This document shows positions 17,099 to 41,323 of a DNA stretch of 43,969 bases, in pieces. Numbering within the stretch: the first letter of the stretch is position 1; each line of letters opens with the position of its first letter. The DNA is from Chloroflexota bacterium (GTDB taxonomy: Bacteria; Chloroflexota; Limnocylindria; P2-11E), in contig VBEY01000228.1 of the NCBI GenBank assembly GCA_005889295.1, positions 1 to 43,969 on the forward strand, read 5' to 3'. The notes below the pieces were generated by a model. That model was given only the letters and a program-made list of their open reading frames with translations, was not told the origin of the DNA and did not search any database. The position numbers and the translations under genes are program-made.

Positions 17099-17100
17099 GG

Positions 17101-17115
17101 GCGCTAAGTTAGCGC
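17101..17115. repeat. Perfect dyad GCGCTAA-G-TTAGCGC immediately upstream of the histidine kinase start
   Basis: 7-bp arms around one central base; encloses TAACTT -10-like hexamer on the minus strand, 7 nt before GTG 17098. Confidence 0.6.
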
Positions 17116-19046: not shown

Positions 19047-20150
19047 TCAGGCGGTGGGCGGCAGTGGATATCCGGCGAGCGCGGGCTCGCCGCGAAGACG
19101 GGCGTAGCCAGGCTTGATACGCGCGTAAATGATCGCGACACGCTCGTCGTATCCCACGAACGCGCTCTTCATCGCGTTGACCGACAGCCGCTCCACATCG
19201 GCGAGCGTCAGCCCGGCTACGCGGGACAGTCGCTGAAACTCATCGGAAAGCGTCACGTGCGACATGAGGCGGTTGTCGGTATTGACCGTGACCCGGAAGC
19301 GCTGCGCGATGAAGTGCCGAATCGGATGCTCCGCGAGGGTCGGTACAGCCCCGGTATCCACGTTCGATGACGGGCACAGCTCGAGCGGGATCCGCTTGTC
19401 ACGCACGTAAGCGGCGAGGGGCCCGAGCTTGACCACTTTGCCATCGCTGATCGCCATGTCCTCGACCAGACGGACGCCGTGGCCGATCCGGTGCGCGCCG
19501 CAGTACTGCAGCGCCTGCCAGATCGACGGCGGCCCAAAGGCCTCACCCGCGTGGATCGTGATCGAGAAGTTCTCTCGACGGCAGAGCTGAAACGCCTCGA
19601 CGTGCGCCTTCGGCGGGTGGCCCGCCTCCTCGCCGGCGATGTCGAAGCCGACGACACCCCGTTCGCGATTTGCCACCGCAAGCTCGGCCATCTCGAGGGA
19701 GTCGATGCGGTCGCGCATCGCGCAGATGATCTGGCGGAGCGTGATGCCGCGCTCGCGCTCCGCGCGCTCGAACCCGCGCTCGACACTCTGGACGACTTGC
19801 TCGAGGTTGAGGCCGCGCTCGGTGTGGAACACCGGCGCGTAGCGAACCTCGGCATACACGACGCCGTCACGCGCCAGATCCTCGCCGCACTCGAACGCGA
19901 CACGCTCGAGGGCTTCCTCGGTCTGCATTACGGCGATGGTGTGCGCGAATCCGCGGAGATAGAGCGAGAGCGAACCTGATGCGGCGCTCGCATGAAACCA
20001 CCTGCCGAGGTCATCCGCGTCAGTGGTCGGAAGACCCGGGTAACCCTGATCTCGGGCGAGCTCGACGATCGTCGCGGGGCGTAGGCCGCCGTCGAGGTGA
20101 TCGTGGAGGAGGACCTTGGGCGCCGCGCGGAGCGTCTCGAGCGGGATCAC
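19047..20150 (-). CDS. add: Adenosine deaminase
   Basis: VLLHDHLDGGLRPATIVELA; EVRYAPVFHT; ITIHAGEAFGPPSIWQALQYCGAHRIGHGVRLVED; LELCPSSNVDTGAV; VTVNTDNRLMSHVTLSDEF. N-terminal extension in the ORF track judged spurious. Confidence 0.92.
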   Translation of the reverse strand: MIPLETLRAAPKVLLHDHLDGGLRPATIVELARDQGYPGLPTTDADDLGRWFHASAASGSLSLYLRGFAHTIAVMQTEEALERVAFECGEDLARDGVVYAEVRYAPVFHTERGLNLEQVVQSVERGFERAERERGITLRQIICAMRDRIDSLEMAELAVANRERGVVGFDIAGEEAGHPPKAHVEAFQLCRRENFSITIHAGEAFGPPSIWQALQYCGAHRIGHGVRLVEDMAISDGKVVKLGPLAAYVRDKRIPLELCPSSNVDTGAVPTLAEHPIRHFIAQRFRVTVNTDNRLMSHVTLSDEFQRLSRVAGLTLADVERLSVNAMKSAFVGYDERVAIIYARIKPGYARLRGEPALAGYPLPPTA

Positions 20151-20271
20151 GATCGGCGGAACGATACGCCTCGCTGTGCGTCCGGCGAGCGTCCGGCCCA
20201 GCAAATTGTTGGACTCAATCACCGCAGGCGCGCGTAGGGTATCGGGCGCAGTTCGTTGGGAGGTCAGCATC

Positions 20272-21930
20272 ATGCGCCGGATCCTTGCATCGGCAATCGT
20301 CACCGGTCTCTTGATCGTCGGAGCGACGACCGCGCTCGCAGGTTCCGCGAAGCATCGCCTCGACACCGGCCTCATCAGCTTCACCGAGGACGCCAAGAGC
20401 GGAACGAACGGGCCGGGCGGTGGTGGCATCTCAGGGATCGCCTGCGTGTCGTCGCTGAGCGGACAGCCGAGCTCCTTCGCCGGCAACGCACTGCTCGACT
20501 GCGACAGCGTCGGTCCGCACAACGAGACCACAGTCGCGGTGAACCCGACGAACGCCGCGAACATCGTCGTCGCTTCGCACACGTATCTGTACAACCTCGA
20601 CAAGCAGAGTGCGATCGCGCTCCTGCGGATCTTCACGGAGGCGTATGTCTCCAAGGACGGCGGCCAGACGTGGACGAACGTCCATCCGCCACATGGGAGC
20701 TACCGGTTCCTGACGGACCCCGCGCTTGCGTTCGATGCGGACGGACATCTCTACTGGTCGAACGTCGCCTCGCACGACAGCGTCGCCGGCGCATTCAGCG
20801 ACGTGAGCGTGATCGTCGAGCGATCCAATGATGGCGGCATCACCTGGACCGACCCCGTGACTGTCGCGAAGGGCAACGGCACGATCAGCAACGGCGGATC
20901 GAACGCGCAGTTCAACGACAAGGACTGGCTGGCGGTCGATCGTGGAACGAGCCGTTATCGGGGGAGCGTCTACGTCACCTGGGCGCGACAGCAGTATCGA
21001 AAGGACGTGCAGACCGAGTCTCCGATCTTCTTCGTGCGCTCGCGCGATGGCGGCGTCACATGGACCGTAGGCGCCGAGATCAGCGGCGCGAGCCCACTGT
21101 GCTCGGGCCAGGGTTCGACCGGCCCGCGCACTCGGTGCGACCAGAACGATGCGGGATTCTCGTCACCGATCGTCGCTCCCGACGGAACCATCTTCGTCGC
21201 GTTTCTCAACCACCAGGCGCAGGGCACAACGCTGCGCGATCAGGTGCTGCTCGTCCGGTCAACCGACGGCGGCGACACCTGGAGCGATCCGCAGCCGATC
21301 GTTGGGCTCGTCCACGACGGCGTCGGCGACTATCCGACGAACTGGGTCGGCGACTCCACCCTGACCGATTGTCAGTTCCGCATCTTCGCCGCCGGCAACC
21401 TGACGATGTCGACAGCCACGGCGAACTCCGGCCAGCTCTATTACGTCTACTCGGAAAACCTCGACCCCGGCGCGACAGGGCGCACCAACGTGATGGCGAC
21501 GACCTCGACGGACGGCGGCTTGACCTGGTCGAAACCGGCCCTTGTAAAGAGCAGCGCGTCCGATCAGATCTTTCCATGGGCGGCTGTCGGTCTGGATGGG
21601 AAGGTTCGTGTCGGCTACGTCGACCGGGCGCGGACCGCACCGCCAGGGCAAGCCTGCGTGTATGGCTACACCCTGGCAACCGCCAATGACCTTGCCGCGA
21701 CGAGCTTCACCACGAAACGGCTGGACACCGGTGTGTCGGTCGCCTCGGACGCGCGCTGGTTCCGGAATAACGCAATCAATGGGACAAACACGCGTTTCAT
21801 CGGCGACTACACGAACATCGCCATTGGTCCGGACGGATCGGTGTGGGCGAGCTGGACCGACATGCGCGACACGGTGACCGTTTTCGGGCGAACCGGGCAT
21901 ACCGAGCACGCCGTCGCGGCGAAGGGCTAA
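20272..21930 (+). CDS. Secreted sialidase/BNR-repeat protein
   Basis: Signal peptide; Asp-box repeats SKDGGQTWTN, SNDGGITWTD, SRDGGVTWTV, STDGGDTWSD, STDGGLTWSK. Confidence 0.85.
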   Translation: MRRILASAIVTGLLIVGATTALAGSAKHRLDTGLISFTEDAKSGTNGPGGGGISGIACVSSLSGQPSSFAGNALLDCDSVGPHNETTVAVNPTNAANIVVASHTYLYNLDKQSAIALLRIFTEAYVSKDGGQTWTNVHPPHGSYRFLTDPALAFDADGHLYWSNVASHDSVAGAFSDVSVIVERSNDGGITWTDPVTVAKGNGTISNGGSNAQFNDKDWLAVDRGTSRYRGSVYVTWARQQYRKDVQTESPIFFVRSRDGGVTWTVGAEISGASPLCSGQGSTGPRTRCDQNDAGFSSPIVAPDGTIFVAFLNHQAQGTTLRDQVLLVRSTDGGDTWSDPQPIVGLVHDGVGDYPTNWVGDSTLTDCQFRIFAAGNLTMSTATANSGQLYYVYSENLDPGATGRTNVMATTSTDGGLTWSKPALVKSSASDQIFPWAAVGLDGKVRVGYVDRARTAPPGQACVYGYTLATANDLAATSFTTKRLDTGVSVASDARWFRNNAINGTNTRFIGDYTNIAIGPDGSVWASWTDMRDTVTVFGRTGHTEHAVAAKG

Positions 21931-21933
21931 CGC

Positions 21934-23385
21934 CTAGCCCGACCACCGAGCGAGGAGCGCGCCGATCGAGAGCGCGACCATCGCGAGCCAAAGGAGGCGA
22001 AGGCCCGCCTCCGGGGCTGCGATGAGCGCGCGACGATCGAGCCGCTCGGTCGTGCCGTCGCGGTAGCGGAGCGAGCCGCTTACCTCGATCGCTTTGCGGC
22101 GGACGCGCCGCACCTGCGTCGAGAGGCGGCGCTGTGCGAGCGAGAGGAGCGATGCACCGGCCGCCGCGGCCACTGTCGCCAGCAAGGGGGCGCCGTTCGC
22201 CAGGGCGCTCGCGATGACCGGAAACCCACCCCACGCGAGCGCGAATCCGAGGTCCGAGTGCACGATCGGAATCTCGAGCCCGTACAAGATGACGAGCGCC
22301 GCACCGACGCCGACGAGCACCAGGAACCACAGACCGAGCTGCGATGCGGCGACGATTCCGAGCGCTACCGCGCCGACCAAGCCAACAGAGCCGAGAGTCA
22401 CGAGCACGCCCGAAGGGATCTGTGTCCCGAGCGGCCGACCCTGCAGCTCGTCGAACGAGTGCGACGCGACACCAACTGCAAGGAAGAACGCCAACAGAGC
22501 GCCGGCGACGATCCGCGGATCAGGATGCGGCGCGAGGGCGGCGCCGAGGAGCACGTATGAGAGATGCCAGAGGGTGTATGGCGGGTGCAGCAATGTCCAG
22601 TAGTCACGCCATCCGCCGCCCTCGAGCGCGTAGAAGGCCGGCGCCACCGAGGGCCTCTTTCCGGATGGCGCCACCGAAACCTTCTCGGTCGCGCCGTCCT
22701 TCACTCCACTCATTACTACGCCTGCGCCGAAGCTCATTCGCGCCGTCTCGACATCGTTCAACCCCGCCTCGCGCCAGTAGCGCTCGAGGTCGCCCTGATG
22801 CTCGCGCCCGAAGCGCTCGATGCTGCCCCTCAGGAAAGCACCCACGCCGGCCCACTGCTCGGAGATGGTGCGGCCGATGATCGGAAGTCCGATCGACGTA
22901 TACCCCCGCCAGAGCCCCCGGATGGTCACGTTTGCCGGCACGCCGAAGTCGAGCGCAACGATGCGCCCGCCGGGTCGGATCACTCGCGCGAGCTCGCGTA
23001 TGACATAGGCAGGGTCGTCGACGTACCGAAGCAAATAAGTGAATGTCACGTGATCAAATGAGTCGTCCGCGAAAGGAAGCGACTCGGCACGGGCGCGCAC
23101 GAGCGGGATATGCCCGTCGCGCGCCGCCGCTGCCGAGAGCATATCGGCGCTCTGGTCGAGCCCGACGACCTGGCAACCGTACTCTTCGCGTAGGGCACGC
23201 GCGACGAGGCCGGTCCCGGTCGCTACGTCCAGCACGACGTCCTGTGGGCTAGCCCGCACCAACGAGATCAGCTTGGCCCGCCACCGCGCGTCCTGTCCGA
23301 ACGAAAGCAACGCGCCAGCCTTCTCGTACGTCGCGCCGATCCCGCTGAAGATGCGACGGGCGTCGTCGGGGGGAGAGGCGGGCAT
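21934..23385 (-). CDS. UbiE/COQ5-like methyltransferase fused to a UbiA-like polytopic membrane domain
   Basis: VVLDVATGTGLVARALREEYGCQVVGLDQS; FTYLLRYVDDPAYVIRELARVIRPGGRIVALDFG; C-terminal membrane region WTLLHPPYTLWHLSYVLLGAALAP...HSFDELQGRPLGT. Confidence 0.82.
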   Translation of the reverse strand: MPASPPDDARRIFSGIGATYEKAGALLSFGQDARWRAKLISLVRASPQDVVLDVATGTGLVARALREEYGCQVVGLDQSADMLSAAAARDGHIPLVRARAESLPFADDSFDHVTFTYLLRYVDDPAYVIRELARVIRPGGRIVALDFGVPANVTIRGLWRGYTSIGLPIIGRTISEQWAGVGAFLRGSIERFGREHQGDLERYWREAGLNDVETARMSFGAGVVMSGVKDGATEKVSVAPSGKRPSVAPAFYALEGGGWRDYWTLLHPPYTLWHLSYVLLGAALAPHPDPRIVAGALLAFFLAVGVASHSFDELQGRPLGTQIPSGVLVTLGSVGLVGAVALGIVAASQLGLWFLVLVGVGAALVILYGLEIPIVHSDLGFALAWGGFPVIASALANGAPLLATVAAAAGASLLSLAQRRLSTQVRRVRRKAIEVSGSLRYRDGTTERLDRRALIAAPEAGLRLLWLAMVALSIGALLARWSG

Positions 23386-23395
23386 CGCTCTCTCT

Positions 23396-25678
23396 CTAGG
23401 CACGCACCGCGCGGCGCGGATCGTCGCCCGGAGCGATGTGCCAGCCCGACCGATACGGCGTGCCGAAGACGATGTCGTCGGGGCGCACCGGCACGCGATT
23501 GAGCTCCCTCCCGCTCGCGGCACGGATCGCCGCGACGATCGCGGGCGTGCTTGATATGGTCGGCGGCTCGCCGACGCCTTTTGCGCCGTACGGCGCATCG
23601 GGATGCGGATGCTCGATGAGCTCGGTGACTACCGGCGGCATGTCGAGCGTCGTCGGCAGAAGGTAATCGGTGAACGAGGCGTTCCGAACGTGCCCGTCGC
23701 GGAGCTGTACTTCCTCCATCACGGCGAGCCCGAGACCCTGCGCGATCCCACCTTCGATCTGACCCACGACCGCAATGGGGTTGATGGCTTTTCCGACGTC
23801 CTGCGCCGTCGCGATCTGGACGACCTTCACGAGGCCCGTCTCCACATCAACGTCTACGACCGCGCGGTGCGCCGCGAAGAGAAAGGCCACGTGGCCCTGG
23901 TTCTGCGTCGTGGCGTTGCGCGCCTCGGTGTCCCGATGACGGTGCGTAACTGTCCGATCGATCGGCTCGTCAAGGAGGACACTCAGATCCTCCGGTGGGC
24001 GACCCGCTTTGCGCGCTCGCGCGAGGAGCTCGGCCTTCACCTCACGGCACGCCGCGAGCACGGCCCCGCCGGTCATCCACGTCTGCCGCGATGCCGAGGA
24101 GGATCCGGAGGAACCGATGGTGGTGTCGGGTCGATCGACCTCGACGCGCTCGACACCGAGCTCGGTGCGGGCAATCTGCGCGCAGACGGTCACGATCCCC
24201 TGCCCCACCTCGGCAGCGGCTGTGTGTACATGGACGATCGGCCCGCGCGTGTCACGTGCGAGGCGCACCCGCGCAGTGGAGAAGTCGTCGAAAGCGTGCG
24301 AGTAGCACACGTTCTTCAGCCCAGCGGCGTACCCCACCCCGCGCCGCACCCCTTCGCCGTGGGTGAGGTTGCCGAGCCCGCCTGGTAGACCAATCGGGTC
24401 GCTCGGGATCTCGTCGTCCGGCATTGCGAGGTCGGCGCACCGACGGATGATGTCGGGAACGGGCGCGCTCCCTTCCACGGGCTGACCGGTGATGATCCGA
24501 TCGCCGTTGCGCAAGGCATTGCGTTCGCGAAACTCGACGGGATCCATCCCGAGCGCGACCGCGAGCTTATCCATCTGCGACTCGTACGCGAAGCACGACT
24601 GCACCGCCCCGAAGCCGCGCATCGCGCCGGTCGGCGGGTTGTTGGTGTACGCGCCGACAGCGTGAATGCGCGCGTTGGGCACGCGGTACGGTCCGGCACC
24701 GAAGCACGCCGCGTTCGCGACAACCGCGGGGCTCGACGACGCGTACGCTCCGCCGTCAAGCACGATCGTGGCCCGCACGAAGACCAGCCGGCCCGCCTTC
24801 GTCGCTCCGTGGCTGTACCAGAGCTTTGCGGGATGCCGATGGACGTGTCCGTAAAAGGACTCTTCGCGTCCGTAGGTCATCCGCACCGGGCGCTTGGTCG
24901 CGAGCGCGAGCAGACACGTGTGGATCTGGAGCGTGACGTCCTCGCGTGCGCCGAACGCGCCGCCGACGCCGGCCAGGACGAGGTGCACCTTCGACTCCGG
25001 CAGCCCCAAGCAGGGCGCGATCTGGCGCAGGTCCTCGTGCAGCCATTGCGTCGCGATGTGGAGCTCGACGCCGCCGTCCTGCCGCGGGATAGCGAGCCCG
25101 GCTTCCGGTCCAAGGGCCGCTTGATCTTGCATCCCGAGCTCGTATTCGCCCTTGACGACGACCTCCGCTGTGGCATTTGGATCGCCGTGCTCGACAAGAA
25201 CGGCCTCGATCACGTTTCCCTCGTGGTGAAGCTTCATGGCGTCCGGCTGCAACGCCGCGACCGGGTCCGTGATCGGCGCAAGCGGGTCATACCGAACGAC
25301 GATCGCGCGCGCCGCAAGGCGCGCTTCCTCGGCCGTCTCGGCCGCGACGATCGCGACAGGCTCGCCCACGTACCGGACCTTGCCGACCGCGAGGACCGGC
25401 TGGTCCAGCTTCATGAGCCCGAAAAGCTCCCGCGTCGGTAACTCGGCCGCGGTGATGATCGATTTCACGCCGCTCATCTTCTTCGCGCCTGCCGTCTCGA
25501 TGGAAAGGATTCGCGCGTGCGGATGCGGACTCCGGAGGGTCGCGCCGAAGAGCATGCCCTCGCGCCGCAGGTCGCTGCCGTACTGGAACTCGCCTTTCAC
25601 TTTCGGCGCGCTGTCGGGCCGTTCGATCGACTCGCCGACGCCGCCGCGGATCTTCGGTCGAACGGGAGCGACGGTCAT
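23396..25678 (-). CDS. Xanthine dehydrogenase-type molybdopterin-binding (large) subunit
   Basis: VGGAFGAREDVTLQIHTCLLAL; GAMRGFGAVQSCFAYESQMD; AEVGQGIVTVCAQIARTELG; YGAKGVGEPPTISSTPAIVAAIRAASG. Confidence 0.93.
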   Translation of the reverse strand: MTVAPVRPKIRGGVGESIERPDSAPKVKGEFQYGSDLRREGMLFGATLRSPHPHARILSIETAGAKKMSGVKSIITAAELPTRELFGLMKLDQPVLAVGKVRYVGEPVAIVAAETAEEARLAARAIVVRYDPLAPITDPVAALQPDAMKLHHEGNVIEAVLVEHGDPNATAEVVVKGEYELGMQDQAALGPEAGLAIPRQDGGVELHIATQWLHEDLRQIAPCLGLPESKVHLVLAGVGGAFGAREDVTLQIHTCLLALATKRPVRMTYGREESFYGHVHRHPAKLWYSHGATKAGRLVFVRATIVLDGGAYASSSPAVVANAACFGAGPYRVPNARIHAVGAYTNNPPTGAMRGFGAVQSCFAYESQMDKLAVALGMDPVEFRERNALRNGDRIITGQPVEGSAPVPDIIRRCADLAMPDDEIPSDPIGLPGGLGNLTHGEGVRRGVGYAAGLKNVCYSHAFDDFSTARVRLARDTRGPIVHVHTAAAEVGQGIVTVCAQIARTELGVERVEVDRPDTTIGSSGSSSASRQTWMTGGAVLAACREVKAELLARARKAGRPPEDLSVLLDEPIDRTVTHRHRDTEARNATTQNQGHVAFLFAAHRAVVDVDVETGLVKVVQIATAQDVGKAINPIAVVGQIEGGIAQGLGLAVMEEVQLRDGHVRNASFTDYLLPTTLDMPPVVTELIEHPHPDAPYGAKGVGEPPTISSTPAIVAAIRAASGRELNRVPVRPDDIVFGTPYRSGWHIAPGDDPRRAVRA

Positions 25679-26082
25679 GATCTCGCCTCGCGGAAGGTTG
25701 GGATGCAGCCGTCGCCCAAGCGGTGGAGCAGCGTCGGAGGGATTCGCTCGCGATCGACGCGCCGGAATCCGATCGCCCCGTAGAAGCCCTCGAGATGCTC
25801 CCACGGGAAGCACCAGCATTCACGCCGCCCGATCGCGTCGGAAGCGAGGGCGAGCATCGCGCGGCCGATGCCGCGCCCGCGCCGTCCCTCGGCAACGACG
25901 ACGGTGCGCAGCACGAGCGTCTGCGCCTCGGGACAGAGGCGCAACGCGCCGACGATTGCACCGTCCCGCGCCGCGTATACCTCCTGATCGGCTTCGAGCA
26001 CCACTTCCCGTCCCAGCTCGCGCCGATAGAAGGATTCGACTTCCGCGCGACCATCGTTGTCGACGCGAGCCACCGCGGTCAT
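25675..26082 (-). CDS. GNAT-family N-acetyltransferase
   Basis: LVLRTVVVAEGRRGRGIGRAMLALASDAIG (Q/RxxGxG/A); FYGAIGFRRV; 4-bp overlaps on both sides. Confidence 0.9.
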   Translation of the reverse strand: MTAVARVDNDGRAEVESFYRRELGREVVLEADQEVYAARDGAIVGALRLCPEAQTLVLRTVVVAEGRRGRGIGRAMLALASDAIGRRECWCFPWEHLEGFYGAIGFRRVDRERIPPTLLHRLGDGCIPTFREARS

Positions 26083-26546
26083 CGTCGGAACCTCCCGGAC
26101 GATGCGCGATCGACCGCTTCAAGAATCTTGCCGTACCCCGTACAGCGGCAGATGTTGCCCGAGAGCGCTTCGCGGACCTCCTGCTCGCTCGGCTCGGGAT
26201 TGCGTTTGAGCAATGCGTACGTCGCGACGACGAGGCCGGGCGTGCAAAACCCACATTGGACCGCGCCCGCTTCAACGAATGCGCGCTGCACTGGATGCAG
26301 CCTCTCGTCGTCGGAGAACGATTCGACAGTCTGGATGCTCCGTTCCGCAGCCGCGGCGCCGAGCACGAGACATGCGCACACGAGGTCGCCATCCATGATC
26401 ACCGAGCAGGAACCGCACTCGCCCTGCTCGCATGCGTTCTTGCTGCCGGCAAGTCCGAGGTTCTCGCGCAGGACCGTGAGGAGGCTTTCGTGGTCCGCCG
26501 CCTCCGCCTCGCGCTCCTCGCCGTTGACGGTCAGCTTGATCCTCAT
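26079..26546 (-). CDS. Xanthine dehydrogenase-type [2Fe-2S] small subunit
   Basis: KNACEQGECGSCSVIMDGDLVCACL; VQCGFCTPGLVVATYALL; GNICRCTGYGKILEAV. Confidence 0.95.
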   Translation of the reverse strand: MRIKLTVNGEEREAEAADHESLLTVLRENLGLAGSKNACEQGECGSCSVIMDGDLVCACLVLGAAAAERSIQTVESFSDDERLHPVQRAFVEAGAVQCGFCTPGLVVATYALLKRNPEPSEQEVREALSGNICRCTGYGKILEAVDRASSGRFRR

Positions 26547-27391
26547 GGGATGACCGCCACTCGCGCGAGCGCGCGGGCTCCCATTACAGCGAGCACGTGG
26601 CGGCGATACGCCGCCGTGCCACGAACGTCGTCGATGGGTTTCGCGGCGCCCGCAACAAGTTTTCCGAACTCCTTCGCGGCGGTCTCGCTCGGCCGTTTCG
26701 GCCGGTCCCAGCCGGCTTCTTCGAGAAGGCCGGCGGCGAAACGTTCGGCCTCGGTCGCCTGGATGATCGTGGGCCCGCACGAGCCGAGGCCCACGCCCAC
26801 GCGCCGCCGCGAACGGTCGACGACCAGAGCGAGCCCCGCGACCGCGATGACCATCGCGTTCCGGGTCCCCACCTTCATGAACGTCTGGGCAGGCCCGGCG
26901 TCGTCCCATTCCGCAGCCACGACGAGCTCGTCCGGCCGCCGGACGCTCTTCTTCGGACCGGTCATGTAGTCGCCGAACCGCACCCGCCGCTCGCCGGAAG
27001 TCGAACGGAGCACGACGGTCGCGTCGAGGGCGGCGAGTACCGGCAGGGTGTCACCGGCGGGAGAGCAGGTCGCGAGATTGCCACCCAGGGTACCGGCGTT
27101 GCGGATCTGCGGCGAGCCAACCGTTCGCGCCGCCTCCTGCAGCGCGACCGAGCCGGCGTCGGCCTCGAGCATCCTCGTGTACGTGACGAGCCCGCCGATA
27201 CGGACGTGGCCGTTGCTCGAGAGGTCTTTCAGCTCGGCGACACGGTCGATCGCGATGATGTGAGCCGGGCGGATCCGACCGAAGTTGATCTCGACGAGGA
27301 GGTCGGTGCCGCCAGCCAGAACCGTCGCGTCCTTAACGCTGGAAAGGTTCTCCAGTACATCGTCGAGATGCCGGCTGATGTGGACGCTCAC
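26543..27391 (-). CDS. Xanthine dehydrogenase-type FAD-binding medium subunit
   Basis: ATVLAGGTDLLVEINFGRIRPAHIIAIDRVAEL; TVGSPQIRNAGTLGGNLATCSPAGDTLPVLAALDA. Confidence 0.93.
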   Translation of the reverse strand: MSVHISRHLDDVLENLSSVKDATVLAGGTDLLVEINFGRIRPAHIIAIDRVAELKDLSSNGHVRIGGLVTYTRMLEADAGSVALQEAARTVGSPQIRNAGTLGGNLATCSPAGDTLPVLAALDATVVLRSTSGERRVRFGDYMTGPKKSVRRPDELVVAAEWDDAGPAQTFMKVGTRNAMVIAVAGLALVVDRSRRRVGVGLGSCGPTIIQATEAERFAAGLLEEAGWDRPKRPSETAAKEFGKLVAGAAKPIDDVRGTAAYRRHVLAVMGARALARVAVIP

Positions 27392-27396
27392 GCCGG

Positions 27397-27403
27397 GATT
27401 ATC
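27397..27403. promoter_or_regulatory. Candidate overlapping bidirectional -10 (GATTAT + / GATAAT -)
   Basis: + GATTAT 27397-27402, 7 nt, GTG 27410; - GATAAT (27403-27398), 6 nt, GTG 27391. Confidence 0.4.
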
Positions 27404-27409
27404 ACTTCC

Positions 27410-31369: not shown

Positions 31370-31752
31370 CCGGCGGCGAGGTCGTCCTCATCGTCGAGGA
31401 CAACGACAAGAACCTGAAGCTCGCGCGCGACCTTCTCCAGTTCGCCGGCCTGCGGACGCTCGAGGCGACGAGCGCCGAGGACGGCATCGCCATCGCGCAG
31501 CGTGAGCGGCCGAGCCTCGTGCTGATGGACATTCAGCTCCCGGGAATGGACGGGATAGCCGCGCTTCGCAGTCTGCGCGGGGACGAGCGGACGGCCGCCA
31601 TCCCGGTCGTCGCGCTCACCGCCTCGGTGATGAAGTCGGATCGCGAACGGTTCGACGCGGCGGGCTTCGACGGGTTCATGCAGAAGCCAATCGACGTCAA
31701 GACCTTCGCGGTGGATGTGCGCGGCTTCTGCGCGCGCGGGCGCGCCGCATGA
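31366..31752 (+). CDS. DivK-like single-domain response regulator
   Basis: VVLIVEDNDKNLKLARDLLQFAG; LVLMDIQLPGMDG; VVALTASVM; FMQKPID; GTGA overlap with kinase. Confidence 0.94.
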   Translation: MTGGEVVLIVEDNDKNLKLARDLLQFAGLRTLEATSAEDGIAIAQRERPSLVLMDIQLPGMDGIAALRSLRGDERTAAIPVVALTASVMKSDRERFDAAGFDGFMQKPIDVKTFAVDVRGFCARGRAA

Positions 31753-33326: not shown

Positions 33327-33790
33327 CCGCGGTCTCGTTCAGCACGATCGCGCAGCCGAACCCGCGTGCTCTCGTCCTCATCGAGGTCCCCGAGACGGTC
33401 GTGAAGAAGCTCGGCGCGGGCAAACGCGTTCCGGTGCGTGTGACGCTCAACGGTGTCGGCTACCGCTCGACGATCGCCGTGTATGGCGGCCGCTACTACC
33501 TTCCCGCTCGCAAGGCGATCTGTGAGGAGGCCAAGCTCGGGCCGGGCGGCCGCGCGCACGTTTCGCTCGAGGTCGACACCGTGCCACGTACGGTAGATCT
33601 CCCGGCCGATCTCGCACGTGCGCTCTCGGCGGCGAAATTACGCTCGGGGTTCGACGCTTTCTCTTTCTCACATCGCAAGGAGTTCGTCGACTGGGTGACC
33701 TCGGCGAAGCGCGCCGAAACCCGAGCGGCGCGCATTCCGAAAGTGATCGCACAGGTTCGCGCGAAGGCGAGGGTCGCCTCGCCCGGATAG
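33323..33790 (+). CDS. DUF1905 + YdeI/OmpD-associated-like protein
   Basis: LIEVPETVVKKLGAGKRVPVRVTLNGVGYRSTIAVYGGRYYLPARKAICEEAKLGPGGRAHVSLEVDTVPRTVDLPADLARAL; GTGA overlap with cyclase. Confidence 0.88.
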   Translation: MTAVSFSTIAQPNPRALVLIEVPETVVKKLGAGKRVPVRVTLNGVGYRSTIAVYGGRYYLPARKAICEEAKLGPGGRAHVSLEVDTVPRTVDLPADLARALSAAKLRSGFDAFSFSHRKEFVDWVTSAKRAETRAARIPKVIAQVRAKARVASPG

Positions 33791-33798
33791 CACTAGTC

Positions 33799-35118
33799 CT
33801 ACGCGAGGCCGGCGCGCCTCATGAGTGGTCCGAGCTGCTCGGTCGCTTTCGCTCGAACTTCCTTCGCGTCCATCTTCGTCGGCACACCGTCGCGCACCAG
33901 AAATTCGCCGTCCACGAGTACATGTCGTACCGCTCGGGATCCGCCGCCGAAAAGAATTCGTGCGACGGGGTCGCCGCCAGGCCCATCCAGGCGCTGGACG
34001 TCGAGCACGACGAGGTCAGCGCGCTTTCCTTGCTCGAGCGTGCCGACTTCGGAGTCGATCCGCAGCATCTTCGCTCCCTCGCGTGTCGCGAGCCCCATCG
34101 CGTCGTAACCGCTCAATGTCCCGATGCCGCTCACGACGCGGGCCAGGAGTGTCGCAAGGCGCATCTCCTCGAATCCATCGAGCCGGTTGTTGCAGGCCGC
34201 GCCGTCGGCGCCGAGTCCGACCGTGATGCGCGCGCTCCGAAGGCGTGCCACCTGCGCGATCCCGGACCCAAGCTTCAGGTTCGACGAGGGGCAGTGCGCC
34301 ACCGACGTCTTCGTCGTCCGGAGTATGTCGACCTCCGAGTCGTCGAGATGAACGCCGTGCGCGATGATCGCGCGCTCGGACGCGATGCCCGTGTCGAGCA
34401 GGTACTGCATCGGCGTGCGGCCGGTGGCCATGACCACGGCATTGCGCTCGTCCATGCTTTCGTTGGAGTGGGTATGGACAAGCAGGTCGCTCAGCTTGGC
34501 AAGCTGCGTCACCGCCTCCAGCAGCTCGCGCGTACACGAGAGCGCGAATCGAGGCATGTACACGTAGCCGATCCGTCCACTCGACGCCTTATGCCACCGC
34601 TTGGTGAGAGCGCCCCCGGCGTCGAGCGACGCGCGAGTCGTTTCGAGGAGATTCGCGGGGACGCCCTCGCCGGTGTCCATCATCGCCTGGCCGAAGCGTG
34701 CGCGGATGCCGCTCCGCACAAGCTCCTCGGCAACGATGTCGCCGTAATGGGTGGTCCCCATGTCAAGGATCGTTGTCGTGCCCGTCGTCAACAGATCGAG
34801 CAGACCGAGGCGCACGCTCGCCCGCACCGACGCCTCGTCGTGGGCCGCCTCGAGCGGCCACACCCGTGTGCGGAGCCATCCGAGGAGTGGCATGTCCTCA
34901 GCCAGACCGCGGAAGAGCGTCTGCACCAGGTGAACGTGTGTCTGCACGATGCCCGGCATCACGACGCATCCCGAGATGTCGATGACCTCGGTGTCGGCGG
35001 GCGGCGTGACCTCGCCAATGCCCCCGATGCGAGTGCCACTCACCAGAAGGTCGCCCTGCACGGGTCGCGGCGAGTCACGAAGTGGCAGCAGGATGCCCCC
35101 CCGAAGCAGAACGCTCAT
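33799..35118 (-). CDS. ATZ/TRZ-family amidohydrolase (5'-deoxyadenosine/MTA/guanine deaminase-like)
   Basis: MPGIVQTHVHLVQTLFRGLAEDMPLLGWL; LLVHTHSNES; AIIAHGVHLDDSEVDIL; VAHCPSSNLKLGSGIAQV; GLGADGAACNNRLDGFEEMRLA. Confidence 0.88.
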   Translation of the reverse strand: MSVLLRGGILLPLRDSPRPVQGDLLVSGTRIGGIGEVTPPADTEVIDISGCVVMPGIVQTHVHLVQTLFRGLAEDMPLLGWLRTRVWPLEAAHDEASVRASVRLGLLDLLTTGTTTILDMGTTHYGDIVAEELVRSGIRARFGQAMMDTGEGVPANLLETTRASLDAGGALTKRWHKASSGRIGYVYMPRFALSCTRELLEAVTQLAKLSDLLVHTHSNESMDERNAVVMATGRTPMQYLLDTGIASERAIIAHGVHLDDSEVDILRTTKTSVAHCPSSNLKLGSGIAQVARLRSARITVGLGADGAACNNRLDGFEEMRLATLLARVVSGIGTLSGYDAMGLATREGAKMLRIDSEVGTLEQGKRADLVVLDVQRLDGPGGDPVARILFGGGSRAVRHVLVDGEFLVRDGVPTKMDAKEVRAKATEQLGPLMRRAGLA

Positions 35119-36371
35119 GCCTGATATGCGAGGTCGCGGAGCGCCGTCGCGAGCACGCGCGTGCCCAGCACGACGTCCTCCGCCGCGGTCGCCTCTTCCG
35201 GACAGTGGGAGCGACCCCCGATGCTCGGAACGAAGAGCATCGCGGTGTTCGCTGCCGCGGTCAGGACCTGCGCGTCGTGCCCGGCGCCGCTCGTCATCTC
35301 ACGCGGCTCGACGCCCGCCGCGAGCGCCGCGCGGCGAAGGACATCGGTGACACGCGGGGAGAGCGTCACGGGTGGCCGATCGCGCAGCGTCCGGATCTCC
35401 AAGGAGAGACCACGTTCGCTCGCGATCCTCTTGGAAGCATCCCCAATTTGGGTGATGAGCTCGCTCCGCCGTGCGGGATCGGGGTGTCGAGTGTCGACGG
35501 TGAATCGTGCGAGGCCGGGGACGACGTTCACCTGCGACGGTTCGACCGCCATCGTGCCGACGGTCGCGACCGCAGGATGCCCCATCCGCACGGCCGCATC
35601 CGCGATGGCGAGCGCCATTGCCGCCGCGCCGAGGAAGGCATCGCGGCGGCGGTCCATCGCCATCGCGCCGGCGTGGTCGGGCTGGCCCCGCACCGTGACT
35701 TCCAGGTGCGCCGTCCCTGCGATCGTCGTGACCACGCCGAGCCGCGGTCCGTGGTCCTCAAGAACCGGCCCCTGCTCGACGTGCAGCTCGATGAAGGAAT
35801 CGAGGTCGCGGCGTACGGCCGAAGCGGCAGTCGTTGGATCGAGCTCGACCGCGCGCATCGCCTCAGCGAGCGTCACGCCGTCCGCGTCGCGCACCCGATC
35901 GGCCTCGCCCGGCTCGAGCCGGTCAGCGATCGCGCGAGCGCCCCAGAAGTTCGTGTCGAACCGGCTGCCCTCCTCCTCGCAGATCGCCACGCATTCGAGG
36001 ATGCGCGTGGACCGGCCGAACCGCTGCCAGAGACTGCTCACCGCTTCGATCCCGGCGACGACGCCAAGCGCCCCATCGAGTGCGCCGCCACCGCGCACCG
36101 TGTCGATGTGCGAGCCGGTCGCGATAACCCGCCCCCCGCGCGATCCTTCGATCCGTCCCCACACGTTTCCGACAGCGTCACGCCTGGTGAGAAGCCCGGC
36201 TTCCTTCATCCACGCGGTGACGAGGTCCATCGCGGAGCTCCAAGCCGGCGAGTACAGCGGCCGGTAGATACCGCCGCGGGGAAGCGCGCCGCGTTGCGCA
36301 AGGTCGTCGAGCCGGCGCAGCAATCTGCGCTCGTCGATCCCGACGAGCTCGCGCGTCGTGGTCGCGGTCAT
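35115..36371 (-). CDS. allC: M20-family allantoate amidohydrolase / N-carbamoylase
   Basis: ATGSHIDTVRGGGALDGALGVVAGIEA; CEEEGSRFDTNFWGARAI; ELHVEQGPVLEDHG; VRGQPDHAGAMAMDRRRDAFLGAA. Confidence 0.87.
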   Translation of the reverse strand: MTATTTRELVGIDERRLLRRLDDLAQRGALPRGGIYRPLYSPAWSSAMDLVTAWMKEAGLLTRRDAVGNVWGRIEGSRGGRVIATGSHIDTVRGGGALDGALGVVAGIEAVSSLWQRFGRSTRILECVAICEEEGSRFDTNFWGARAIADRLEPGEADRVRDADGVTLAEAMRAVELDPTTAASAVRRDLDSFIELHVEQGPVLEDHGPRLGVVTTIAGTAHLEVTVRGQPDHAGAMAMDRRRDAFLGAAAMALAIADAAVRMGHPAVATVGTMAVEPSQVNVVPGLARFTVDTRHPDPARRSELITQIGDASKRIASERGLSLEIRTLRDRPPVTLSPRVTDVLRRAALAAGVEPREMTSGAGHDAQVLTAAANTAMLFVPSIGGRSHCPEEATAAEDVVLGTRVLATALRDLAYQA

Positions 36372-37753
36372 CCTTCGGCCACTTCCCCTCTTCCGATGAA
36401 TCGCCCCCGCGCGGGATTGGTTACGGTCTCAAGCTCGTTATAGACCGTGCGACCGGCCACGAGGGTGCGAACGACCTTCCCCCGGAAGGACCGTCCGACG
36501 TACGGATCGACCCCGCGTGTGTACGAGCGCTCGCGGTCGAGGGCCCACTCGCGGTCAGGATCGAAGAGCACGACGTCGGCGTCCGAGCCAGGCGCGATGG
36601 CCCCCTTGCGGGGCCAGAGGCCGAACCGCTTTGCCGGTCTCGTCGACAGACGCCAGACCGCGAAACCCGCGACCTTGCGCACATCGATGGCGCCGCTGGC
36701 ACGCGCCATCGCACCGCCAAACACCGCGGGCAGGAGCGACTGGGCGCCGGCGACGCCGCCCCACGCCGCGAAGAGGTCGGCCCCGTCCTTCAGCTCCGGC
36801 GAGCAAGGCGAGTGATCCGAGGCCACGAAGTCGATCCGGCCCTCAAGTAGCGCGCGCCAGAGGCCGTCGCGGTTCCGAGCGTCGCGGATCGGCGGCGCGC
36901 ATTTGAGGGCCGCACCCTGCCCGGCGAGATCGTCCTCGTCAAAGGTGAGGTAGTGCGGGCAGGTCTCCGCCGTGACATCGGTGCCCATGTCGCGGGCGGC
37001 GCCGACCGCGCCGAGCGCCTCGACCGCCGAGACATGCACGATGTGGATCCGCGCCCTGGCCTCCCGCGCCGCCGCGCACGCGCGCGCCACCGCTCGGACC
37101 TCGACGAGTGGCGGCCGCGACGATGGCCAGGCCCCGACGTCGGATCGTCCAGTGCCGCGGACGCGCGCTGTCGCCTCGCGGACGAGTGCTTCGTCCTCGC
37201 AGTGCAGCGCGACGACAAGACCCGCGTCCGCGGCCGCGCGAAGCGCCGGCACGAGATCCTCATCGCTAATCGCGGGAAACTCGGGTACTCCGCTGTCGCA
37301 CAGAAACGCTTTCACGCCGACGGCGCCTCGCTCGCTCAGCTCGCGCAGGGCGCCAGGATCCACGTCGACGAGACCGCCCCAGAGCGCGAAGTCAACGACG
37401 GATGCGCGTTCGGCCGCAGCCCTCTTCAGATCGAACGAGGCACCGTCGAGGACCGGCGGTACAGAGTTGAGCGGCATGTCGAGGACCGTCGTCGTCCCGC
37501 CGGCCGCGGCCGCCCGGCTGCCGCTCGCCCAGCCCTCCCAATCCGTTCGTCCGGGCTCGTTGAAGTGCACGTGCGCGTCGACGACTCCGGGTAGCGCGAG
37601 CAGGCCCCGCGCGTCGATCTCGTGCTTCGCCGTGGAGGCGCCGGCCTCGACGAGCGCGCTGATCCGTCCGTCGCGGATCAGGATGTCGCGGGCGTAGGCC
37701 CCGTCGGAGACCACCACCGCGCCGCGAATCGCGAGGTCGGCTTTGGCGCTCAC
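36368..37753 (-). CDS. allB: Allantoinase (dihydroorotase/hydantoinase superfamily)
   Basis: LPGVVDAHVHFNEPGRTDWEGWASGSRAAAAGGTTTVLDMPLNSVPP; VKAFLCDSGV; HCEDEALV; TAETCPHYLTFDEDDL; DFVASDHSPCSPELK. Confidence 0.92.
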   Translation of the reverse strand: MSAKADLAIRGAVVVSDGAYARDILIRDGRISALVEAGASTAKHEIDARGLLALPGVVDAHVHFNEPGRTDWEGWASGSRAAAAGGTTTVLDMPLNSVPPVLDGASFDLKRAAAERASVVDFALWGGLVDVDPGALRELSERGAVGVKAFLCDSGVPEFPAISDEDLVPALRAAADAGLVVALHCEDEALVREATARVRGTGRSDVGAWPSSRPPLVEVRAVARACAAAREARARIHIVHVSAVEALGAVGAARDMGTDVTAETCPHYLTFDEDDLAGQGAALKCAPPIRDARNRDGLWRALLEGRIDFVASDHSPCSPELKDGADLFAAWGGVAGAQSLLPAVFGGAMARASGAIDVRKVAGFAVWRLSTRPAKRFGLWPRKGAIAPGSDADVVLFDPDREWALDRERSYTRGVDPYVGRSFRGKVVRTLVAGRTVYNELETVTNPARGRFIGRGEVAEG

Positions 37754-38163
37754 TCTTCGGTGATGCTGAAGTCCTGCGCGCCTTCCCAGAGAGCGAGTCG
37801 ACCGACCTCCGCAAGATGCTCGTTGCCCTCGATGACCGTCGCGAAGTGGTTCCCGGCGAGCTGCCCCACCTTGCTCGAGAACAGCGTCGCGCCGTAGGGG
37901 AAGAGGATCTCCATCTCTGAGATGCCGCCGGGGTAGACCAGGATCTGCCCGGGCGCGGGGTGACTCGTGTGATTCTCGAAATCGACGCTGAGCCGGCGCT
38001 CGCCCATCGGGACCCAGGTCGATTCACCGCTCCAGCGACAGTGGACCAGCTTGCTTCGCAGCGGCAGGAGCTTTCGGATGGCGGCGCAGGTTTTCGGAGC
38101 GGCTCGGTCCTCGAGGCGCGCTTTGAAGGTGAAGCGTCCAGCCGTGATGCGGAGCATCGTCAT
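37750..38163 (-). CDS. DUF3830 family protein (cyclophilin-like)
   Basis: MTMLRITAGRFTFKARLEDRAAPKTCAAIRKLLPLRSKLVHCRWSGESTWVP...PGQILVYPGGISEMEILFPYG; 4-bp overlap with allantoinase; alternative ATG 38190. Confidence 0.78.
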   Translation of the reverse strand: MTMLRITAGRFTFKARLEDRAAPKTCAAIRKLLPLRSKLVHCRWSGESTWVPMGERRLSVDFENHTSHPAPGQILVYPGGISEMEILFPYGATLFSSKVGQLAGNHFATVIEGNEHLAEVGRLALWEGAQDFSITEE

Positions 38164-38171
38164 CGCGGGCG

Positions 38172-38178
38172 TACGATA
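38172..38178. promoter_or_regulatory. Candidate overlapping bidirectional -10 (TACGAT + / TATCGT -)
   Basis: GTA-CGA-TAC core; + TACGAT 38172-38177 then 11 nt to ATG 38189; - TATCGT 38178-38173 then 9 nt to ATG 38163. Confidence 0.4.
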
Positions 38179-38188
38179 CCGGCCGCTC

Positions 38189-38482
38189 ATGGCGACCCTC
38201 TCAACACACGTCCTCGATACGGCGACTGGCCGTCCCGCGTTGGGTATCGCAGTCTCGCTGGAAAAAGACGGCGCGGTGATCGCCCGGGGTGTGACCGACG
38301 GTGACGGGCGCGTCGCGGAGCTGGCCCCTTCGCTCGCACCAGGACGTTACCGGCTCGTGTTCGAGCTCCAGGGCCGCTTCTTCCGGCGCGTCGCGCTCGA
38401 CGTCGAGATCGGCTCGGAACCCAAATACCACGTCCCGCTTCTCGTCACGCCGTTCGGGCTGACGAGCTATCGCGGGTCGTGA
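38189..38482 (+). CDS. uraH: 5-hydroxyisourate hydrolase (transthyretin-like)
   Basis: LSTHVLDTATGRPALGIAVSLEK; RVALDVEIGSEPKYHVPLLVTPFGLTSYRGS (C-terminal YRGS signature). Confidence 0.96.
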   Translation: MATLSTHVLDTATGRPALGIAVSLEKDGAVIARGVTDGDGRVAELAPSLAPGRYRLVFELQGRFFRRVALDVEIGSEPKYHVPLLVTPFGLTSYRGS

Positions 38483-38922
38483 TGACCGTCGCGCCAGAGG
38501 CCCTCGCGGCGATCTTCGAGCGAGCTCCGGCGCTCGCGGAGCGGGTGCGAGGGAATGATGCCGCGTCGATCGTGGCGTCGGCTCGTTCCGAGGTCGCGCG
38601 CATGACCGAGAGCGAGCGCATCGCCGTTCTCGACGCACACCCGCGGATCGGGGCCGACCCCGTGTCGCTCTCGGCGCTCTCGCGAAGCGAGCAGGGCGGC
38701 GCCACCGACATCGCGACGATGCGCGAGCTCGCCGCGCTGAACGAAGAGTACGAGCGCAGATTCGGCTTCCGCTTCGTCGTCTTCGTCGCGGGCCGCTCGA
38801 AAGCTCAGATCGTCCCGATCTTTCGCGAACGCCTCCGGCACACGCGCGAGGTTGAGCTCGCGATCGGCATCGACGAATTTCTCGCGATCGCGGGCGATCG
38901 ATTGGAGCGGATCACGTCATGA
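38479..38922 (+). CDS. uraD: OHCU decarboxylase
   Basis: VLDAHPRIGADPVSLSALSRSEQGG; LAALNEEYERRFGFRFVVFVAGRSKAQI; 4-bp overlap; ATG 38482 also possible. Confidence 0.93.
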   Translation: MMTVAPEALAAIFERAPALAERVRGNDAASIVASARSEVARMTESERIAVLDAHPRIGADPVSLSALSRSEQGGATDIATMRELAALNEEYERRFGFRFVVFVAGRSKAQIVPIFRERLRHTREVELAIGIDEFLAIAGDRLERITS

Positions 38923-39770
38923 CCACGACCGAGATCAGCTACGGCAAGGCCCAGGTTGTCTTCTACCGTCTCGGCGGCCACGACATCGCACCCCTCGCGG
39001 CGTCGGTCGACGTCGACGTCTTCGGAAAGCGGTTTCTCGCTGCGTATACCGAGGGCGACAATCGCGAGGTCGTCGCGACCGACACGATGAAGAACTTCGT
39101 GTACGCGATGGCGGCCGAGTACAGCGGCCGGACGCTCCTGGGGCTCTGCGCCTTCCTTGGCCGCCGCTTTCTGGAGACCTACCCGGTGATGGAGGCACTC
39201 CGCGTGTCCGCACGCGAGGTACCGCTCGACGCGGCCGCCGGCGAACGTGGCCCAAGCGACGTCCTGTTCCGCTCGACGCGCGGCGACGGCGCCGTCGCTC
39301 AGGTCGCCGTCGACGCGATCGGCGGAAAGCCCGAGATCACCGGCGCGCGCAGTGGCTGGGAAGACATGCTGCTGGTGAAGACGACGGGGAGCTCATTCGC
39401 GACGTTCGCCCGAGACGACTTCACGACTCTGCCGGAGCTCACCGACCGCCCGCTGACGATCGGCCTATCCGTGTATTGGCGCTACCGCGATCTGGTTGAC
39501 GGGGTCGCCGAGGGCCCCGGTTTTCTCGGCCCGCGAGCCGTACGCGACGAGATCGAGCGCATCTTTCACGAGTTCAACAGCCGCTCGATCCAGCATCTGG
39601 TGCACGAGATCGGCGCTCGCTTGTTCGGGGCGCACACGCAACTTCAAGAGATCGAGTTCGTATCCGAGAACCACACCCCCGACCATGTCCGGGACGGCAC
39701 CGGTGGCGTGAAGATATTCGCCGCACCGAGAGGGACCTTCGGAAAAATCGGCCTGGTTCTCAGGCGATGA
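38919..39770 (+). CDS. Urate oxidase (uricase)
   Basis: YGKAQVVFYRLGGHDIAPLAASVDV; VVATDTMKNFVYAMAAEY; LLVKTTGSSFATFARDDFTTLPELTDRPL; NHTPDHVRDGTGGVKIFAAPRGTFGKIGL. Confidence 0.95.
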   Translation: MTTTEISYGKAQVVFYRLGGHDIAPLAASVDVDVFGKRFLAAYTEGDNREVVATDTMKNFVYAMAAEYSGRTLLGLCAFLGRRFLETYPVMEALRVSAREVPLDAAAGERGPSDVLFRSTRGDGAVAQVAVDAIGGKPEITGARSGWEDMLLVKTTGSSFATFARDDFTTLPELTDRPLTIGLSVYWRYRDLVDGVAEGPGFLGPRAVRDEIERIFHEFNSRSIQHLVHEIGARLFGAHTQLQEIEFVSENHTPDHVRDGTGGVKIFAAPRGTFGKIGLVLRR

Positions 39771-39784
39771 AGCGGCGGCTTCAT
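39767..39784. repeat. Inverted repeat ATGAAGC-GGCG-GCTTCAT at the urate oxidase stop codon
   Basis: 7-bp perfect stem, 4-nt loop; third half-site GCTTCAT at 39791-39797; no U-tract. Confidence 0.45.
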
Positions 39785-39850
39785 TACGGGGCTTCATCCC
39801 CCGCGTAGACTCGCAAAGTAAGGAAGAACCAGCTTCTGGGCCCCGCGCGG

Positions 39851-40558
39851 GTGTTGATCGTCGTCGATCAACCACTGGCGAACCTCGTCGCTCTGGCCCT
39901 GAATCACGGCAAATACCTCACGCGGATCGACCACGACCCGAGGAGCGCGCGGACCGAGCTCGAGGCCTGGCGACCGCACCTCCTCCTCGTGGACCTCGAC
40001 GCTCACGACCCCGAGTCGATCGGCCTCATCGGTCAGCGCGTTGAGAACCGACGGATTCCGACGATCGTCTTCAGCGAGCGAGGTGATCTCAAGACGAAGC
40101 TCACCGCATTCGATCAAGGCGCCGACGACATCATCACCGTGCCGTTCGTGCCTGAGGAGCTCGTGGCGCGGACGCTCGCGCTGATGCGGCGGAGCTATGG
40201 CGACGGCATTGCCTTCATCCCCGTGATCACCGTCGCCGGCCTGGAGATCGACCTGCTGAACAAGCATGTGAAGGTCGGCAGGCTCCGCCCCGAGCTGACC
40301 GCCATGGAGCAGGCACTGCTCTATCTCCTCGCGTCAAATGCCGGTCAGACGCTGGGGCGCGAAGAGATCCTGGATGCGCTTTGGGGCTCGGATTACATCG
40401 CGGGGAGCAATATCGTCGATCGCCACGTGCGAAACCTACGGCTGAAACTGAAGGATCATTGGCGAAATCCTCGATTCATTGGAACCGTCCCGGGAAAGGG
40501 ATACCGCTTCCTCCCGTCCGTGAGTTCGCGTCATGACAGGGCGTTATCCCGGGCGTAG
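39851..40558 (+). CDS. Atypical OmpR-like regulator (pseudo-receiver + winged helix)
   Basis: VLIVVDQPLANLVALAL...LLLVDLDAHDPES...DDIITVPFVPEEL; winged helix LTAMEQALLYLLASNAGQTLGREEILDALWG...VDRHVRNLRLKLKDHWRNPRFIGTVPGKGYRFL; start uncertain (see finding). Confidence 0.88.
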   Translation: MLIVVDQPLANLVALALNHGKYLTRIDHDPRSARTELEAWRPHLLLVDLDAHDPESIGLIGQRVENRRIPTIVFSERGDLKTKLTAFDQGADDIITVPFVPEELVARTLALMRRSYGDGIAFIPVITVAGLEIDLLNKHVKVGRLRPELTAMEQALLYLLASNAGQTLGREEILDALWGSDYIAGSNIVDRHVRNLRLKLKDHWRNPRFIGTVPGKGYRFLPSVSSRHDRALSRA

Positions 40559-40567
40559 ACCTCCTTC

Positions 40568-41323
40568 GTGGCAGTCGTCAACGGGCGCACCCGCGCGGAC
40601 ACCACGTTTTCCAAACGCGAAGCTCCCCGCGTGCTGATCGTCATGAACGAGACCCTTGGGAATCTCGTGGCCGTGACTCTGCGGCACGGGCCGTATGAGA
40701 CGGAGAGGTCCACGAACGCCCAGGAGTGCCGCGATGTGCTCCGCGACTGGAATCCCCACATGGCCTTTATCGATCTCGATCTGTTCGAGCCGTTCATCGA
40801 CATCGTTGGGCGCGGGCTGACCCATGGTCAGATGCCCATCCTCGCGTTCACCCGGCGACGCGATACCGCGCTAAAGCTGAGCGCCTACGAGCGGGGAGCC
40901 GACGACATCATCGAGGTGCCGTTCACGCTTGACGAGATCGTGGCTCGCCCGTTCGCGCTCATGCGGAGAGCGCACGGCATCCCCGTCACTATCGTGCCGA
41001 AGATCAAACTTGACGGGCTCGAGGTGGACCTGCTCTCGCAGCGAGTTAGCGTCGGCGGCCGCGAGCTTCAGCTCACGCCGATCCAGCAGACCCTGCTGTA
41101 TCTGCTTGCCGCGAATGCCGGAAGGGCTTTGAGCCGCGAAGACCTCCTGTCGAGCATCTGGGGAAGCGAATTCGAGATCGAGAGCAACGTGGTCGATCGT
41201 CACATCCGCGAGCTCCGTGTGAAACTTGACGATGAGTGGCGCGCGCCCCGTTTCATCGAGACCGTCCCCGGCGCGGGCTACCGGTTCAAGGCACAGGAGC
41301 CTGTGGGCGACGCCGCGAAGTAA
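40568..41323 (+). CDS. Atypical OmpR-like regulator, paralog of preceding gene
   Basis: RVLIVMNETLGNLVAVTLRHG...MAFIDLDLFEPF...DDIIEVPFTLDEI; LTPIQQTLLYLLAANAGRALSREDLLSSIWG...VDRHIRELRVKLDDEWRAPRFIETVPGAGYRF. Confidence 0.9.
   Translation: MAVVNGRTRADTTFSKREAPRVLIVMNETLGNLVAVTLRHGPYETERSTNAQECRDVLRDWNPHMAFIDLDLFEPFIDIVGRGLTHGQMPILAFTRRRDTALKLSAYERGADDIIEVPFTLDEIVARPFALMRRAHGIPVTIVPKIKLDGLEVDLLSQRVSVGGRELQLTPIQQTLLYLLAANAGRALSREDLLSSIWGSEFEIESNVVDRHIRELRVKLDDEWRAPRFIETVPGAGYRFKAQEPVGDAAK

Follow-up and report, generated by a model that had tools for sequence, protein, structure and literature searches.

The window analysed here, a 43,969-nucleotide contig (VBEY01000228.1) of an uncultured soil Chloroflexota bacterium, carries a purine-degradation gene cluster with a multi-GAF signalling cassette lying inside it. 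Its source is a 3.23-Mb metagenome-assembled genome (MAG) in 339 contigs, which is 92% complete. Proteins were identified using Pfam and NCBIfam profiles against their curated cut-offs. The purine genes, together with two genes that the original prediction from the bare sequence had overlooked (the BNR-repeat and UbiE-like genes), are arranged as follows.

19047-20129, minus strand: adenosine deaminase, ADA (NF006847, 518 bits against a cut-off of 412)
20116-21930, plus strand: BNR-repeat gene, antisense between the ubiE-like gene and ada
21934-23390, minus strand: UbiE-like methyltransferase between xdhA and ada (start approximate, near 23390; 60-72% conservation in the genus)
23396-25639, minus strand: XdhA, molybdopterin subunit of xanthine dehydrogenase (XDH) (TIGR03196 pucD, 819 against a cut-off of 784; start approximate)
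26079-26546, minus strand: XdhC, 2Fe-2S subunit (Pfam above cut-off; start approximate)
26543-27391, minus strand: XdhB, FAD subunit (Pfam above cut-off; GTG start at 27391)
33799-35118, minus strand: ATZ/TRZ-type aminohydrolase, ancestral neighbour of xdhB (best match NF005557, under its cut-off)
35115-36371, minus strand: allantoate amidohydrolase of HyuC/AllC type (NF006771, 400.5 against a cut-off of 399)
36368-37753, minus strand: allantoinase AllB (TIGR03178, 486 against a cut-off of 358)
37750-38163, minus strand: DUF3830 protein (profile match; start corrected to 38163)
38189-38482, plus strand: UraH, 5-hydroxyisourate hydrolase (Pfam above cut-off; TIGR02962 75.9, under its cut-off of 87.5; start corrected to 38189)
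38479-38922, plus strand: UraD, OHCU decarboxylase (profile match)
38919-39770, plus strand: urate oxidase (TIGR03383, 173.7 against a cut-off of 168.4)

The gene set from xanthine to ureidoglycine is complete at 19047-39770, with three XDH subunits, urate oxidase, UraH, UraD, allantoinase and allantoate amidohydrolase, and every enzyme that the original prediction had named was recovered by the profiles. The order is DUF3830-allB-hyuC-ATZ and xdhB-xdhC-xdhA-ubiE-like-ada on the minus strand and uraH-uraD-uox on the plus strand, and overlaps of 4 bp between neighbouring genes are common, a pattern seen in translationally coupled operons. For ADA, the 535-residue open reading frame (ORF) from 20654 is too long, and orthologues at 76-89% identity begin near 20129. 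The best match of the ATZ/TRZ protein scores below its cut-off and does not fix its substrate. The BNR-repeat gene appears to be another insertion in this operon, since the ubiE-like gene and ada adjoin in a relative (G001). Compared with bacterial uricolytic clusters such as the puc genes of B. subtilis, the enzyme set and the pucD-type XDH are shared, but the window cluster adds DUF3830 and the UbiE-like methyltransferase, is broken by the signalling cassette, and shows neither a PucR-type regulator nor a transporter in the proteins scanned. Among the window proteins covered by the Pfam scan there was likewise no regulator of the PucR/GntR/LysR type, as had been claimed for the PucR and GntR types.

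The cassette, intact at 27458-33326, is placed antisense between the ATZ gene and xdhB and consists of a kinase, a receiver and a REC-GAF-cyclase, followed by a small fourth gene. These genes also overlap by 4 bp.

27458-31369, plus strand: histidine kinase in which six tandem GAF domains precede HisKA and HATPase (TTG start; Shine-Dalgarno sequence GGGAGG at 27445-27450)
31366-31752, plus strand: single-domain receiver with complete phosphorylation residues (profile and alignment)
31749-33326, plus strand: REC-GAF-class III cyclase-like protein with a canonical receiver and the cyclase active site D..H..D..G..I..R (profile and alignment)
33323-33790, plus strand: DUF1905/OmdA protein, limited to the window genome and its nearest relatives (profile)

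The kinase most likely starts at the TTG at 27458, behind GGGAGG; the start given by the ORF caller (26597) lies antisense to xdhB. In the alignments, the HisKA His, the N and G boxes of the ATPase and the receiver residues D, D, T and K are all retained, and the cassette has no DNA-binding output domain.

The history of this arrangement was followed in a census of all 29 genomes of the order in our sample, which were queried with urate oxidase and the REC-GAF-cyclase, and the neighbourhoods of the matches were compared by mapping the window proteins onto them. Urate oxidase is present in 17 of the 29, and the purine cluster is an ordinary degradation cluster found family-wide, whose ancestral form is contiguous (DUF3830-allB-hyuC-ATZ-xdhB-xdhC-xdhA-ada). 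Only about 30-280 bp, and no cassette, separate ATZ from xdhB in G011, G014, G016 and G022; the gap is 0.7-3.1 kb and cassette-free in G012, G018 and G023, and in G025, which belongs to another family, the purine cluster is rearranged and cassette-free. The cassette lies between ATZ and xdhB in G000-G004, G007, G008, G020, G024 and G041, and a reduced form occupies the same position in G006 and G009. Cassette and purine genes are thereby linked in 12 genomes of two genera (the genus of the window plus the sister genomes G020, G024 and G041), which bears out the association that the original prediction had seen in the window. Both ends of the arrangement sit on different contigs in G003, G007 and G020, and contig ends truncate the locus in G005 and G010. 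Since ATZ and xdhB are contiguous in the uninserted genomes, the interrupted state is the derived one, and since the gene arrangement recurs in relatives, it is not due to chance.

The cassette also occurs on its own. An orthologue lies elsewhere, not amid the purine genes, in six genomes of the order (G011, G012, G018, G022, G023 and G025), with the separate cassette of G022 about 6 kb from xdhA. In three of these genomes, a peptidase M50 with two domains binding cyclic nucleotide monophosphates (cNMP) stands beside the stand-alone cassette or its kinase array (G012, L036:110-2470; G022, L095:15004-17457; G011, L119:1131-3224), and this protease might be an effector of the stand-alone cassette. 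As an effector of the window cassette it was rejected, because the window genome has no close relative of it. In a wider scan with the REC-cyclase alignment against GTDB genomes, in which the best 80 loci were annotated with flanks of up to 10 kb, kinase, receiver and REC-cyclase stood side by side in 30 loci from Actinomycetota, Alphaproteobacteria, Burkholderiales, a Desulfobacterales MAG and Chloroflexi. Purine genes were found within the flanks of only two of the 30 (L152 and L153, both from the window's genus), and the other 28 were without them. The gene order is shared with operons of Knoellia (L177), Kribbella (L221), Nocardioides (L211), Mesorhizobium (L198), Ensifer (L210) and Stappia (L204), with identities to them of 49-65% for the kinase core and 51-62% for the cyclase (50-65% and 52-62% across the outgroups tabulated); these operons have no purine genes nearby and mostly one or two GAF domains. 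The cassette is thus a widespread, portable, general-purpose signalling module.

Inheritance within the lineage was not purely vertical. In the tree with outgroups, the cassettes of the window's genus form a single clade, with support (80/74) that is not strong. Within it, the cassette of G003 and G004 groups with that of G007, and its grouping with G000/G008 is rejected (p-AU 3e-78, approximately unbiased test), whereas the ATZ-allB-hyuC-uraHD genes of the same two genomes group with G000/G006/G008/G009 (99/98). This conflict rejects purely vertical inheritance of the cassette for G003 and G004, and the simplest reading of the trees is that their cassette was replaced in place by recombination. 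The rpoB tree serves as a rough guide only, as the window genome has no comparable fragment and G016 and G018 form odd long branches.

The input side of the cassette is a variable mosaic. Using a profile built in this analysis, the number of GAF domains per kinase ranges in the order from 4 (G025) to about 12 (G002), compared with mostly 1-2 and up to 6 (Rhizobiales) in other phyla. Compared with G008, the window kinase has a 91% identical core and matches at 82-88% in GAF 1, 5 and 6, but nothing close to its GAF 2, 3 and 4 occurs in G008; GAF 2 has its matches in G004 (81%) and in G020 of another genus (78%). The inner GAF domains therefore change faster than the kinase, and the purine enzymes do not turn over in this way. 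GAF types common to several arrays hold roughly equal order, so that a long ancestral array altered by deletion and duplication can account for much of the variation, and some GAF pairs that are closer than their kinases suggest exchange between arrays. Assembly artefact was rejected as the main cause, because the longest exact repeat inside the window array is only 17 bp, which makes read collapse unlikely, and the fusions described below are 83% identical over their shared length. As for ligands, a simple NK-n-FxxxD pattern for cNMP-binding GAF domains of the NKFDE type had no match in the window kinase. Tandem GAF domains also precede the histidine kinase in cyanobacterial multi-GAF photoreceptor kinases such as All2699 (PMC6696110), but the window kinase gives no evidence of a bilin, contains just five Cys among about 1050 residues and carries a variable mosaic array.

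On the output side, the cyclase domain is homologous to the catalytic domain of the class III cyclases CyaB (3R5G) and CyaC (1WC1) and retains both metal-binding Asp and the transition-state Arg. In contrast, the substrate pair (Lys/Glu with Asp/Cys/Thr) is His and Gly in the window clade, by Lys to His and Thr to Gly changes, and the transition-state Asn is Ile. This Asn is kept by nearly all relatives outside the window clade, and also by G020, G024, G041 and G025. Loss of the transition-state Asn strongly reduces turnover in class III cyclases, which makes catalysis by the window cyclase doubtful. In the reduced form of G006 and G009, the kinase and both receivers are gone, and two or three GAF domains are fused straight to the cyclase (L030:4708-6594 and L034:3634-6267); the two fusions, from two species, keep their 83% identity across the junction. 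Because the fusion bypasses kinase and receivers and ties GAF input to cyclase output, it is the best evidence for the cyclase as the output of the GAF array.

Two short regions lie between back-to-back gene starts.

27392-27457: 66-bp region between the starts of xdhB (minus) and the kinase (plus), candidate overlapping divergent promoters, in which CTAGTGACC and CGGAAGTGATAATCC are conserved (minus-strand reading)
38164-38188: 25-bp region between the starts of DUF3830 and uraH, with the palindrome GTACGATAC/GTATCGTAC

In the first region, nine genomes of the genus are all identical at 30 of 66 columns, compared with 10 of 66 in the adjacent N-terminus of the kinase. The block GGAAGTGATAAT is invariant across the nine, with GATAAT a few nucleotides upstream of the xdhB start, and the sister genomes G020, G024 and G041 retain ATAATCC and CTAG. 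A scan of the 66 bp with the sigma-70 consensus found no standard site, and a purine-regulon motif taken from the xdhB block had no other copy within the window. Bidirectional promoters are a described class in prokaryotes (PMC12825309, PMC10268837), and overlapping divergent promoters may be present here. As most uninserted genomes also carry a TA-rich, -10-like hexamer shortly upstream of xdhB, the promoter of xdhB probably predates the insertion, and for the same reason the idea that the insertion robbed xdhB of its promoter is unsupported. In the second region, the sequence of the palindrome is kept in the window's genus, its sister genus and G014, and a symmetric two-way promoter is likely.

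Taken together, we consider it likely that an ordinary, complete purine cluster hosts an inserted portable module, which has been inherited with at least one in-place replacement and is possibly co-regulated with xdh. The cassette entered in reverse orientation between the ATZ aminohydrolase gene and xdhB, probably in an ancestor of the lineage, and was then inherited, with replacement in place at least once. The tandem GAF domains may integrate at least one small-molecule or redox signal, the HisKA kinase would phosphorylate the single receiver and the receiver of the REC-GAF-cyclase in the presumed direction of phosphoflow, and the cyclase domain would be the output, through a nucleotide product or a nucleotide-dependent conformation. 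Because insertion against the xdhB promoter makes both units read outward from the 66 bp, co-regulation of the kinase and xdhBCA-ada is plausible. The ancestry of the cassette carries no information on purines, and the cassette is probably not a dedicated purine sensor. Several points weigh against our interpretation. First, the missing transition-state Asn means that the cyclase domain may be non-catalytic. Second, every resolved genome of the genus keeps the insertion, which could mean a purine role; synteny is high genus-wide in general, however, with GH15, dihydroorotate dehydrogenase and other neighbours also kept, so that retention is weak evidence either way. Third, a single clade of all inserted cassettes (the genus with G020/G024/G041) is not rejected (p-AU 0.069) but not demonstrated either. 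Finally, every genome of the order is a MAG or a MAG-like draft.

Among the alternatives, the cassette can be regarded as a neutral passenger at a permissive spot, with a function unrelated to purines and an incidental share in the promoter region. Its stand-alone occurrence elsewhere and the general synteny that explains its retention fit such a view, and a TA-rich, -10-like element before xdhB in several uninserted genomes implies that xdhB had no need of the cassette. However, the genus-wide conservation of the CTAGTGACC and GGAAGTGATAAT blocks and the persistence of the reduced GAF-cyclase form at the identical spot in two species leave this a possible but less probable account.

Control of the purine genes may instead lie with two OmpR-like proteins downstream of uox.

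39851-40558, plus strand: OmpR-like regulator 1 with a pseudo-receiver, Lys to Val (profile and orthologue alignment)
40568-41323, plus strand: OmpR-like regulator 2 with a pseudo-receiver, acidic pocket absent and Lys to Val (profile and orthologue alignment)

Both have an intact winged helix (Trans_reg_C 78.6 and 85.8 bits) and sub-threshold receivers, in which the acidic pair is incomplete and the conserved Lys is Val in orthologues, in agreement with the atypical receivers noted earlier. The pair adjoins uox throughout the window's genus wherever contigs extend that far, and the loss of the receiver Lys would suit local purine or nitrogen regulators that act independently of phosphorylation, somewhat like GlnR of actinobacteria. 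On the other hand, resembling tandem pseudo-receiver pairs lie away from uox in G022 (C115:9421-11560) and G025 (C76:23100-24549), and the sister genus has uox without the pair at that place. GlnR membership was rejected, as the structural likeness is merely at the general level of the OmpR family. We regard this role as possible but less probable, and the two proteins are candidates for local control, no more.

A dedicated purine-responsive system, in which purines or products of their breakdown bind to the GAF domains and the flanking enzymes are governed by the relay, is improbable: the linkage in 12 genomes of two genera, the shared 66-bp region with its conserved blocks and the lack of another obvious regulator among the scanned window proteins speak for it, but six genomes of the order carry the cassette away from the purine cluster, 28 of the 30 loci have it without purine genes in their flanks, purine clusters exist without it, a turnover of inner GAF domains not matched by the enzymes is odd for a fixed-ligand sensor, and a DNA-binding output domain is lacking. 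Purine sensing by the GAF domains has no direct support, and in the literature library searched no paper tying multi-GAF kinases to purine clusters was found. The original prediction of a sensor of purine state is therefore not sustained, and the neighbourhood comparison proposed with it gave a divided answer, with the cassette beside xdh in the 12 genomes and also independent of purine genes, one of the two outcomes foreseen as telling against such a sensor. Under our preferred reading of an inserted portable module, we can offer one tentative extension, in which the re-assorting GAF array would provide a combinatorial, lineage-tuned input to a fixed set of kinase, receivers and cyclase, and the output would be wired to purine oxidation through the shared divergent promoter and short-circuited by fusion in two species.

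Other genes of the window were also recorded. An HD-GYP protein, a histidine kinase and an OmpR-type response regulator (15174-18411, minus strand) adjoin the purine cluster and are kept in part of the genus. A PyrD type 1 family dihydroorotate dehydrogenase with an N-terminal extension (42536-43939, minus strand) often neighbours uox across the family. Near the other end, a 1131-residue protein with lamin-tail, Ig-like and endonuclease/exonuclease/phosphatase domains (125-3520, minus strand) is possibly an extracellular nuclease.

In conclusion, a full uricolytic pathway is documented here for uncultured soil Chloroflexota, and the locus illustrates that insertion can give a conserved metabolic operon a sensory system as its neighbour; the states before and after are both preserved in sister genera. 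It also cautions that adjacency in one genome is a poor guide to function. The mosaic GAF arrays form a natural series for studying the evolution of multi-domain sensors, and the two GAF-cyclase fusions provide a testable shortcut of the relay.

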